This document shows positions 1-22,583 of a stretch of DNA of 33,904 nt, piece after piece. Each line of letters opens with the position of its first letter. Position 1 is the first letter of the stretch. The stretch is from Chloroflexota bacterium (GTDB lineage Bacteria > Chloroflexota > Anaerolineae > 4572-78 > J111). The notes under the pieces were generated by a model that worked only from the letters and a program-made list of their open reading frames with translations, had not been told where the DNA came from and ran no database searches. The translations under genes and the position numbers were made by a program. The stretch is from positions 1 through 33,904 of the forward strand of contig JAJRVO010000134.1 in assembly GCA_024277275.1 (NCBI GenBank). Direction: 5' to 3'.

Positions 1-222
1 CGCAAATGAACAATGAACAATGAGTAATGAGCAAATAAACTCAGATAAAAAATCAAAAAGAAAAAGAATCTGTGAAAATCTGTATTCATCTGTGGATAAT
101 AATTCTCGCGGACGACGCAAATGTTGCGAGGTAATACTATAACGCAGCAAGCCGCAAATGAATAATGAATAATGAGCAAAGATTCTCGTGAGCAGCGCAA
201 ATCTTGTGGGGTAATCCTATAA

Positions 223-6245: not shown

Positions 6246-6428
6246 AAGTAACCCAAGTTGCTACCTGACCAACCAACAGTCAGAAAATCAATGATTCAGC
6301 GCCAAGTAAGCCAGAAGTAGGAAGTATGGAGTAGGGAGTATGGAGTAGGGAGTATGAAGATTTTACCCCTAATCCCTACTGCTTACTTCCTACTCCCCGG
6401 TTTGATGATACAGGTGGCAACTTGAGTT
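6246..6428. repeat. Nested inverted repeat with heptamer interior
   Basis: Outer AAGTTGCTACCTG (6255-6267) / CAGGTGGCAACTT (6411-6423); interior six heptamers GAAGTAG GAAGTAT GGAGTAG GGAGTAT GGAGTAG GGAGTAT (6314-6355) facing TACTGCTTACTTCCTACTCC. Confidence 0.85.
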
Positions 6429-14397: not shown

Positions 14398-14560
14398 GAG
14401 TTTATAGGAGTTTAATGAGTTAGGTGGGTTGGGTGAGTTAAAAGGACGCAATGCCGCACTTAACGCCGGTTATCAGCCCAAATTCCCCAATTTATTTTTA
14501 CCGGGGATAGCTAACAACTCATTAAACTCACTAAACTCACAAATCTCTATAAACTCTCTA
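14398..14560. repeat. Inverted pair of nonamer tracts
   Basis: Left GAGTTTAAT GAGTTAGGT GGGTTGGGT GAGTTAAAA; right AACTCATTA AACTCACTA AACTCACAA ATCTCTATA AACTCTCTA (14516-14560). Confidence 0.85.
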
Positions 14561-19093: not shown

Positions 19094-20827
19094 TTATCCC
19101 AAAGCCAGGAGCAAACCGCCCTGGAAAACAATAAAGGCCACTGCCCAGGCCACCGCAAACTGACCAAAAATACTGAACCACATCCACTTCACTCCCAGTT
19201 CCTGCCGCTCGGCGGCAATGGTGACCATACAAGGCGTGTAAAGAAGAACAAACACCATAAACGCCAATGCCGCCAGCGCCCCATGCCCGCCGCTGGTCGC
19301 CTCAAAATTAACCTGAATAGCCGCCATCAAATTGGTGGGGTCCGGTTCCCCTTCTCCCTCAAACAGGTTGATACCGATAATCAGCGGGACAGATTTAATG
19401 GTGTCTACCGTGGCCCGCACAAAGCCAACCCCAATTTCAACCACGTCCTCAAAGAAAGTGGTCGGCCTTGTTTCTACTTCAACATCTTGCACGTTATAAA
19501 CCAGGGCAGCGGTGCTAATTACCACCTCTTTAGCCACAAACCCGGTAATCAGAGCGCCGCTGTTTTCCCAATTTCCAAATCCCAGGGGAGCAAAAATGGG
19601 AGCTACCGCGCCCGAAACCATCCCGAAGGCGCTATCATCCACCTCCGTGTCGGCAAAAGCGCCGGCGCCGTTAGCCGGCGTAGCCATCAAAAACCAAACA
19701 ACAATGCTTGCCGCCAGGATAATTGTCCAGGCATTGCGGATAAATGTAGAGGTACGCTCCCACACGTAAAACCAAATGGTTTTAAGATGAGGCCAACGAT
19801 AGGGAGGCAACTCTATCAGAAACGGGGTTGTATCCCCTTCCTTAAAAAGCGTGCCTCTAAGGATAATGCCTAACCCAATAGCCGTAACAATGCCCAACAG
19901 ATAAAGACTAAACACAACCAGGCCCGTTTGCTGCGGAAAAAAGATGGCGGCAAACAAAACATAAACCGGCAGCCGCGCCCCGCAACTCATAAAGGGGACC
20001 AGCAGCCCGGTTAAAATGCGGTCTCTTTCATTTTCCAGGGTGCGGGTGGCATACAAGCCCGGCACAGAACACCCAAAACCCACCACCATCGGCAAAAAGC
20101 TTTTGCCGTGCAACCCCACCTTTTGCATCACGCGGTCCATTACAAAAGCGGCTCGCGCCATATAGCCGGAGTCTTCTAAAACAGCCAGGGCCAGATAAAG
20201 CGACATCAAGACCGGCACAAACACCATCACCCCGCCGACCCCGGCAATAATGCCATCGACAAACAAGCTCTCAATCCAGGTCCCTGTCAGGCTCAGCATC
20301 CCCAGCAATCCAACTGTCCAATGGGTAATTGGCCCGCCAATTACCGCGTCCACCCAATCCAGATAGGGCGTGGCAATATCGGTGGTTACTTTAAAAACAA
20401 TCCACATCAGGGTCAAAAAAATGGGGATGCCCAGCAGGCGGTGGGTGACAACTTTATCAATTTTATCAGATATGTTGACCGGCTGAACCGCCGGACGAGT
20501 AAGCACGTTACGTACCAGGCTATTGACAAAACTGTAGCGATAATCCGCCAAAATAATGTCTACGTCCTCGCCGTAACGTTCTTCAAGCCGGGTCAGGCTG
20601 CCCTCCAAAGCATCTATTACGCTTGCCCCGCCACTGACAGCTTTGACCTCTGCCAATAAAACTTCATCGTGTTCCAGTAATTGAATTGCCAGCCAGCGGG
20701 GACTGTAAATGGCAATCAACTCCGGCAACTGTTCAATAGCGACGCAAAGGCGCTCAATCTCCGTTTCAATTTCCCGGCTGTACTCCACGTAAATCGGATG
20801 GTTAAAGACAATACCGGCTGCCGTCAT
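19094..20827 (-). CDS. feoB: FeoB permease part (helical domain plus membrane core), separate ORF
   Basis: Gate motifs VGFGCSVPGLYATRTLENERDRILTGLLVPFMSCGARLPVYVLF and nucleoside-recognition-type TM domain. ATG at 20827 with GGAGG upstream. Confidence 0.9.
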   Translation of the reverse strand: MTAAGIVFNHPIYVEYSREIETEIERLCVAIEQLPELIAIYSPRWLAIQLLEHDEVLLAEVKAVSGGASVIDALEGSLTRLEERYGEDVDIILADYRYSFVNSLVRNVLTRPAVQPVNISDKIDKVVTHRLLGIPIFLTLMWIVFKVTTDIATPYLDWVDAVIGGPITHWTVGLLGMLSLTGTWIESLFVDGIIAGVGGVMVFVPVLMSLYLALAVLEDSGYMARAAFVMDRVMQKVGLHGKSFLPMVVGFGCSVPGLYATRTLENERDRILTGLLVPFMSCGARLPVYVLFAAIFFPQQTGLVVFSLYLLGIVTAIGLGIILRGTLFKEGDTTPFLIELPPYRWPHLKTIWFYVWERTSTFIRNAWTIILAASIVVWFLMATPANGAGAFADTEVDDSAFGMVSGAVAPIFAPLGFGNWENSGALITGFVAKEVVISTAALVYNVQDVEVETRPTTFFEDVVEIGVGFVRATVDTIKSVPLIIGINLFEGEGEPDPTNLMAAIQVNFEATSGGHGALAALAFMVFVLLYTPCMVTIAAERQELGVKWMWFSIFGQFAVAWAVAFIVFQGGLLLALG

Positions 20828-20828
20828 C

Positions 20829-21362
20829 TTACAATATCCCTCCGGCCGGTTGCGCCTCTTGCTTCGCCTGGACAAAGTCGGCAATAATCTGTCTTAATTC
20901 ATCAAGGCCCTGGTTGCGACTGGCAATAGCGGAAATAACCGGAATTCCGCCCAATCCTTCTGACATCTTTTGCGTGTCGATTTGAAAACCGCGATGACCG
21001 GCCATATCCATCATATTCAACACCACCACGGTCGGCGTTCCGGTTTCTAAAATCTGCATGGTCAGGTAAAGATTTCGCTCCAAATTTGCCGCGTCGGCCA
21101 CGTTTACCACCAGAGCCGGCTTTTCTTTTACAATAAAATCGCGGGCAATCTGCTCCTCTAACGAGTAAGCCGACAGGCTATAAGTTCCGGGCAAATCAAC
21201 CACCTTGATATTAAACCCGTTGTACTTAAAATTGCCTTCTTTTTTTTCAACGGTTTTACCCGGCCAGTTCCCCACATATTGACGAGAACCGGTCAACGCA
21301 TTAAAAACCGTACTTTTACCGGCATTAGGATTACCGGCCAGAGCAATAGTAAAATCAGTCAT
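20829..21362 (-). CDS. feoB: FeoB GTPase domain, separate ORF
   Basis: [19 protein letters not shown] (G1), [20 protein letters not shown] (G3), LNMMDMA (G4). Ends with TAA one nt before the permease ATG. Confidence 0.93.
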
Positions 21363-21491: not shown

Positions 21492-21728
21492 TTATGCCGG
21501 TGAAACCATAATTTTGTGGGCCATACTACGCCCCAACGCCAACCGCGAGTTGTACACAGAGAGCAACATCGGCCCGCCCTGGTCTTGCATAACTCGTAAC
21601 TCCACGCCGGGAGTCAAGCCCAGTTCCGTCAAGCGGCGGCGCAGTTTGCGCCCGGTAGTAATTGCGACAAGTTTCACCGTTTGACCCGGTGTAATCATTG
21701 ATAGTGGTAGTGTGCTGTTTGTAGTCAT
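21492..21728 (-). CDS. feoA: FeoA-family SH3-like protein
   Basis: LSMITPGQTVKLVAITTGRKLRRRLTELGLTPGVELRVMQDQGGPMLLSVYNSRLALGRSMAHKIMV. Confidence 0.92.
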   Translation of the reverse strand: MTTNSTLPLSMITPGQTVKLVAITTGRKLRRRLTELGLTPGVELRVMQDQGGPMLLSVYNSRLALGRSMAHKIMVSPA

Positions 21729-21754: not shown

Positions 21755-21873
21755 AGCTCGTAGCTTATAGCTTATAGCTCGTAGCTCGTAGCTCATTGCT
21801 AATTGTTCATTGCTCATTGTTCATTGCTCATTGCTAATTGTTCATTGCTCATTGCTCATTGCTCATTGTTCAT
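21755..21873. repeat. Phased degenerate heptamer tract, 17 consecutive units
   Basis: 6 units AGCTCGT/AGCTTAT/AGCTCAT followed without phase change by 11 units TGCTAAT/TGTTCAT/TGCTCAT. Confidence 0.95.
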
Positions 21874-21889
21874 TTGCGGCTTGGCCGCG

Positions 21890-22570
21890 CTATGTGACAG
21901 GTATAGGTAAATCTTCCGGTTCAATAACCGGGGTAAAATAAACGCTTTCAGCAATTTCGCCTGACAACGACAGGTGTTGGCCGCCTATCTGTAAAAACAG
22001 CGAGCCATTGTCGGCAACGGCCAACATTTTTACCATAACGCCCGGCAACACGCCCTGATGATGCAGAAACTCCTGGGTAGTTTTATCAGCGTCAATATTG
22101 ACAATTTGCCCCTGCGCCCCGGCGGCCAGCGCGGTTAACCGCTCCACCGGACGCGCGTCGTGAGCGTCATCATCGCCGGCAGGAATCGGCTTATTTTGAG
22201 GACTGAGGGTTGGATACTCCAAAAACTCGGCTAACCGTTCCGCCAGTTCATCGGGCGTAACATGCTCAAAGCGACAAGCCACCTCTTCGGCCTCGCGCGG
22301 CTCGATGCCCAACTTCTCCACAAAAAAAACTTCCCACAAACGCCGGTGCCGCAACACGCGCTGCGCCAGAACTTCTCCCTGAGAGGTAAGCGTTACCCCT
22401 TTATAAGGCTCATAGGCAACAAGGTCCTTATCAGTCAATTTTCGACACATCTCATTAGCCGAAACCGGCGAAACCGAAAGCTCTTGCGCCAGCAGAGGAA
22501 CAGGAACCGGCTGCGTCCTTTGTTGTAACAGAGCTATTCTGAGCAGGTACATTTCAATACTTTCACTCAT
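21890..22570 (-). CDS. DtxR/MntR-family metal-dependent regulator with C-terminal FeoA-like domain
   Basis: SESIEMYLLRIALLQQRTQPVPVPLLAQELSVSPVSANEMCRKLTDKDLVAYEPYKGVTLTSQGEVLAQRVLRHRRLWEVFF. Start assigned at MSES; upstream ORF extension lies in the regulatory module. Confidence 0.92.
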   Translation of the reverse strand: MSESIEMYLLRIALLQQRTQPVPVPLLAQELSVSPVSANEMCRKLTDKDLVAYEPYKGVTLTSQGEVLAQRVLRHRRLWEVFFVEKLGIEPREAEEVACRFEHVTPDELAERLAEFLEYPTLSPQNKPIPAGDDDAHDARPVERLTALAAGAQGQIVNIDADKTTQEFLHHQGVLPGVMVKMLAVADNGSLFLQIGGQHLSLSGEIAESVYFTPVIEPEDLPIPVT

Positions 22571-22583
22571 TGTGTCCTCGGCC

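Follow-up and report, generated by a model that had tools for sequence, protein, structure and literature searches.

The window, a stretch of 33,904 nucleotides, is a whole contig of a 6.06-Mb genome assembled in 833 contigs, which its closest named dtxR loci place in the Chloroflexota, class Anaerolineae. On its minus strand, a gene for a DtxR-type metal-dependent regulator is followed by feoA and then by parts of FeoB, as identified by Pfam, with FeoB (19094-21362) divided between two overlapping open reading frames, one for the G domain (20829-21362), the other for the membrane part (19094-20884). The dtxR open reading frame as listed begins farther upstream than the gene start placed at about 22573. 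The dtxR stop and the feoA start are separated by a gap of 161 bp, largely occupied by an array of 7-bp units whose end is about 26 bp from the feoA start. The sequence-only reading had described this array as seventeen consecutive in-phase heptamers between dtxR and feoA; re-reading the window confirmed every word to the letter and the single phase, and the Pfam matches confirmed the flanking genes (Table 1). At lag 7, 95 of the tract's 112 positions are identical (binomial tail 4e-25, given the match rate of intergenic DNA), and identity is also present at lags 14 and 21. Read on the minus strand, the left end (E1, CATAGCGCGGCCAAGCCGCAAATGAAC) of a dispersed element immediately precedes the tract, and the TAG that terminates the dtxR gene (21892-21890) comes from the E1 junction. 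No Rfam family matched at the gathering score in the whole window, and a known RNA family was dropped as a reading.

Table 1. Features of the dtxR-feoA gap and element copies at the start of the window.
Feature	Position	Strand	Details
Heptamer tract	21755..21873	minus	17 in-phase units
E1	21876..21894	minus	CATA 21894-21891 (presumed target) and GCGCGGCCAAGCCGC; palindrome GCGGC-CAA-GCCGC 21876-21888
DtxR-type metal-dependent regulator, C-terminal FeoA domain	21890..22573 (end approximate)	minus	Pfam PF01325, PF02742, PF04023
feoA	21492..21728	minus	Pfam PF04023, 73 bits
Copy cut by contig start	1..141	plus	E1 end, heptamers 5-34, insertion, E2 ~99-141
Complete second copy	138..221	plus	E1, three heptamers, E2; head-to-tail with preceding copy

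Read on the minus strand from E1, the tract comprises 11 AATGARC/AATTAGC units, the native word, and then six units of an AGCTAYR type towards feoA, which are locally derived words. In forward-strand words, with one letter for each, the pattern is x y y x x z / c a b a b c a b b b a, where z is AGCTCAT. The steps from AGCTCGT to AGCTCAT and on to TGCTCAT are single substitutions, and AGCTCAT stands exactly at the word junction, so the change of word is a local two-substitution shift that needs only point mutation and duplication in 7-bp steps. Phase is kept automatically because duplication and loss run in whole units. Similar units adjoin each other within the tract more than expected by chance (permutation p = 0.009), and a five-unit (35-bp) block recurs in part. 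In-phase drift of this kind is common in the genome, with 23 of 44 arrays of at least six units containing units at least three substitutions apart. Of the earlier description of a switch of word family without loss of phase, the retained phase thus stands, while the switch dissolves into single steps and is not abrupt. Import of a second word family into the tract was also considered and rejected, since a genome search found AGCT-type words essentially restricted to the dtxR-feoA locus.

The element was recognized from flanks common to the gaps around arrays, followed by searches of the genome for patterns of its ends. It is about 88 bp long and present in about 90 copies, many of them identical, each laid out as CATA, the palindromic E1, normally four AATKARC heptamers and E2 (...GGTAATACTNTA). 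The E1 pattern has 90 genome matches against two for a reversed control, and the E2 pattern has 89 against none. Aligned copies define a young, nearly uniform subfamily in which E1 is CATA followed by GCGCGGCAAGCCGC, E2 is TTCTCGCGGATAACGCAAATGTTGCGAGGTAATACT NTA, and the whole reads CATA, GCGCGGCAAGCCGC AAATTAACAATGAGCAATTAACAATGAACAAATGA TTCTCGCGGATAACGCAAATGTTGCGAGGTAATACT NTA, with AATTAAC AATGAGC AATTAAC AATGAAC as the spacer; an older subfamily reads AAATGAACAATGAACAATGAGCAATGAGCAAAGATTCTCGCGGGCAGCGCAAATCTTGTGGGGTAATACT. Heptamer number varies among copies (3, 4, 5, 6 and 8). In 66 of 79 pairs E1 and E2 are spaced by 60 bp, in five by 59, and most departures among the remainder (52, 67, 67, 73, 74, 74, 87 and 124) amount to whole heptamers, a stepwise pattern that lends no more than indirect support to slippage as the source of length changes. 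Tandem head-to-tail copies at 88 bp occur in five places. Both ends are palindromic and unlike each other, and a compensatory E1 variant, GCGGT-AA-ACCGC, is found in L095 and L128. Folded as RNA or as DNA, the element does no better than shuffles, so structural claims are drawn from the palindromes alone. A related element at about 3046-3197 of L095 (minus-strand coordinates) combines the variant E1 with a non-heptamer interior and lies head-to-tail with a standard copy.

Several observations suggest that the element is probably mobile and non-autonomous. CATA precedes 27 of 31 matched left ends; of the other four, three follow TATA, two of these being clearly the right end of a neighboring copy, and the fourth is a mutated form. 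A protein kinase gene in L142, itself otherwise broken, has a copy inserted within it, and joining the flanks between CATA and TTGAACG restores an uninterrupted frame (...VMEYVEGESVDKH continuing into IERWSGPLPIETILDIA...) with nothing lost or duplicated and kinase motifs on both sides. The exact rejoining is also compatible with a 2-bp TA duplication. Within the class, E2 is patchy, occurring in 20 of 298 genomes, with high copy number in G086 and G167 and nine copies in G259, and is abundant in a few genomes, as for a mobile family. A pattern search found E1 not enriched over control in E2-rich genomes, so the combination of E1, heptamers and E2 seems to have been amplified recently in this lineage; one copy with 85% identity was found in G002. 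Copies are often placed next to or inside GCGTAATGCGTAACG heptamer arrays, as though the CATA target came from them, with examples at L048 6846, L088 553, L117 2767 and L130 879 (minus-strand coordinates). No plasmid match was obtained for the element or for three heptamer arrays with BLAST, whose low-complexity filter may hide simple repeats.

Among known systems, the element shares several features with non-autonomous derivatives of the IS200/IS605 (Y1/HUH) type, namely palindromic unlike ends, the absence of a long target duplication, a tetranucleotide flanking the left end with a similar one at the right, and head-to-tail joins (PMC6006769). Copies insert directly after a fixed tetranucleotide and leave no target duplication beyond a possible 2-bp TA, and the pattern resembles single-strand (Y1/HUH) transposition. 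Unlike that type, the element has no cognate Y1 transposase or TnpB linked to it: in this genome, which is about 90% complete, all four Y1 matches fall on contigs without E1 or E2 and no TnpB zinc-ribbon domain was found, and the DNA examined contained no long E1-E2 copy. The E1 palindrome also sits only about 2 nt from the target, which leaves little room for a guide tetranucleotide, and the guide geometry described for IS200/IS605 (PMC6006769) is not evident in the element. Short palindromes, high copy number and mostly extragenic location are shared with REP, BIME and REPIN sequences (PMC3733652). Unlike REPs and REPINs, the element lacks a GTAG/GGAG or CGTC tag, with TAGC/TAAC at the foot of E1 and GATT at the foot of E2. 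Its ends differ from each other, unlike the inverted copies of one palindrome in a REPIN, and its head-to-tail joins recur, an arrangement that is absent or under-represented in REPs. Identity with REPINs was therefore rejected, as both the tag and the inverted symmetry are absent.

At the dtxR-feoA locus, the minus-strand tract opens with CATAGCGCGGCCAAGCCGCAAATGAACAATGAGCAATGAGC, the sequence of the older subfamily, and runs for 17 units without E2. An nhmmer match (1.2e-9) to this locus (L161) supports E1, which passes unbroken into the subfamily's AAATGAACAATGARC; the junction of E1 with the array is identical to that of complete copies (GCCGCAAATGAACAATGARC). With E2 absent, membership in the element is based on E1 and the spacer words. 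We consider it likely that the tract belongs to a decayed copy of this dispersed, probably mobile and non-autonomous element and represents its over-expanded internal spacer. A copy of the older subfamily would have landed immediately behind a CATA where the dtxR gene ends, and slippage or unequal exchange may then have raised the number of its heptamers, 7 bp at a time. The AGCTAYR words would have come from point mutations and were presumably then copied locally, and E2 may have been lost by deletion.

An ordinary long heptanucleotide repeat grown by polymerase slippage, with E1 adjacent by chance or inserted later, is an unlikely alternative explanation of the same tract. Heptamer arrays without E1 or E2 are common in this genome and in relatives, and those built of AATGARC words occur here and in G019, G008 and G002, so that E1 could have landed beside a pre-existing array. 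Heptanucleotides are also reported to outnumber the other classes of long simple repeat in most of the prokaryotic genomes surveyed, and polymerase slippage has been proposed for them (PMC4679880, PMC4692102). Against such an origin, the tract joins E1 exactly as complete copies do, and its words are the element's own spacer words. Misassembly or an incorrect count of units might be suspected in a genome so fragmented, where several arrays and element copies lie at contig ends and the window contig itself begins inside a copy; the tract, however, lies within its contig between stretches of unique coding sequence, and independent assemblies of relatives also carry heptamer arrays, so we regard this possibility as very unlikely.

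The array may alternatively be a regulatory device that binds a protein or sets the dtxR-feoA spacing in the mRNA, with copy number tuning feoA expression. Its position, inside a likely transcription unit and close upstream of the feoA start, would suit this, and a role as sites for translational regulators has been proposed for the TAACTGA heptamers upstream of starts in Beggiatoaceae (PMC4679880). Conservation is lacking, however: orthologous dtxR-feoA gaps in L016, L018, L019, L020 and L026 are at most 56 bp long and have no array, which argues against a conserved regulatory role. Comparable arrays also lie between unrelated genes, the region shows no promoter- or terminator-like excess, and E1 and the array, folded together as RNA, do just slightly better than shuffles (z -1.8). 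We consider regulation very improbable and rejected it as the main reading because several orthologous gaps lack an array. An effect on the dtxR/feoA expression ratio, which the sequence-only reading proposed to test, likewise found no support, given these orthologous gaps and a tract that sets out from one end, the left, of a dispersed element. Two other orthologous gaps (L025 and L017) contain their own, different heptamers, which could hint at a preferred site. Most likely, the tract is transcribed with the operon but is neutral or nearly so, a tolerated insertion.

Heptamer arrays extend well beyond this locus. In 80 evenly spaced contigs (581 kb, 83% coding), lag 7 and its multiples (14, 21 and 28) are the only strong enrichment in the autocorrelation of intergenic DNA, an enrichment away from the locus that the sequence-only reading had singled out as informative. 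This sample holds 66 period-7 arrays in intergenic DNA vs 19 in predicted genes; intergenic arrays of periods 5, 6, 8 and 9 number 0, 2, 10 and 11, with 0-1 in shuffles. The triple word of TGYTCAT has 99 genome matches, and many other word families are present, including GGATTTT, GGTAATT, AGTAATT, CATCATT, AGGGAGT and AACAATT. Period 7 is also dominant, with other words, in three genomes of the same family and at named Chloroflexota loci. The earlier proposal of a 7-bp mechanism or constraint is borne out insofar as a 7-bp process operates throughout the genome and in relatives, so that this tract is not alone in its period, while the in-phase change of words does not serve as an argument for anything beyond slippage plus mutation.

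Neighboring arrays within 120 bp form 59 inverted vs seven direct pairs, where random word pairs would give about 20% each. The bias was seen again in G005 and G019, though not in all relatives, and we found no description of inverted pairing of heptamer arrays in the open-licence full texts read. The 7-bp arrays of these Anaerolineae might conceivably arise from a dedicated or structure-templated process instead of ordinary slippage, in which the paired arms of a hairpin would template one another's growth in 7-bp steps and a mobile element would seed heptamers through the genome, although we think this quite unlikely. If true, hairpin-templated growth would explain why words differ between genomes while the 7-bp geometry with complementary arms is shared. 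Within the window, two-armed complementary heptamer arrays lie at 744-821 (TAGTAAT/CCAATTA) and 6314-6397 (GGAGTAG/CCCTACT), with a loop of 12.

The arrays described here have much in common with known heptamer repeats, including the long heptanucleotide repeats (LSSRs), the STRRs of Calothrix and Nostoc, GGGNATC of Xanthomonas and Nostoc, TAACTGA of Beggiatoaceae and the (GATAGRA)n satellites of Chloroflexus aurantiacus, all with a 7-bp unit in mostly intergenic locations (PMC4679880, PMC4692102, PMC6749651). Variable copy number, degenerate related words and many loci per genome are likewise shared, and our arrays are tandem 7-bp units beyond chance that are mostly intergenic, dispersed and variable in copy number. 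Unlike those repeats, many word families with a strong inverted-pair bias are found here in one genome, and one family resides inside a dispersed element with defined ends. Heptamer repeats as such are already known; to our knowledge, and as far as open-licence full texts go, a home for them inside a short dispersed element is undescribed. Some 90 nearly identical copies that carry the same small heptamer array to different sites amount to a natural experiment on array growth, and bear on why prokaryotes favor 7-bp repeats. Should the inverted pairing hold elsewhere, it would suggest that DNA hairpins take part in the growth of arrays.

Arrays of other periods were also seen. In the window, AACTCACTA/AACTCAATA words form period-9 arrays at 221-314 and 14416-14560, the latter with an inverted partner (TGAGTTAGG ... 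AACTCACTA). At 5430-5982 of L088, a mixed 7/8-bp array (GGTAGCA, GGGTTGCA) has a long inverted arm.
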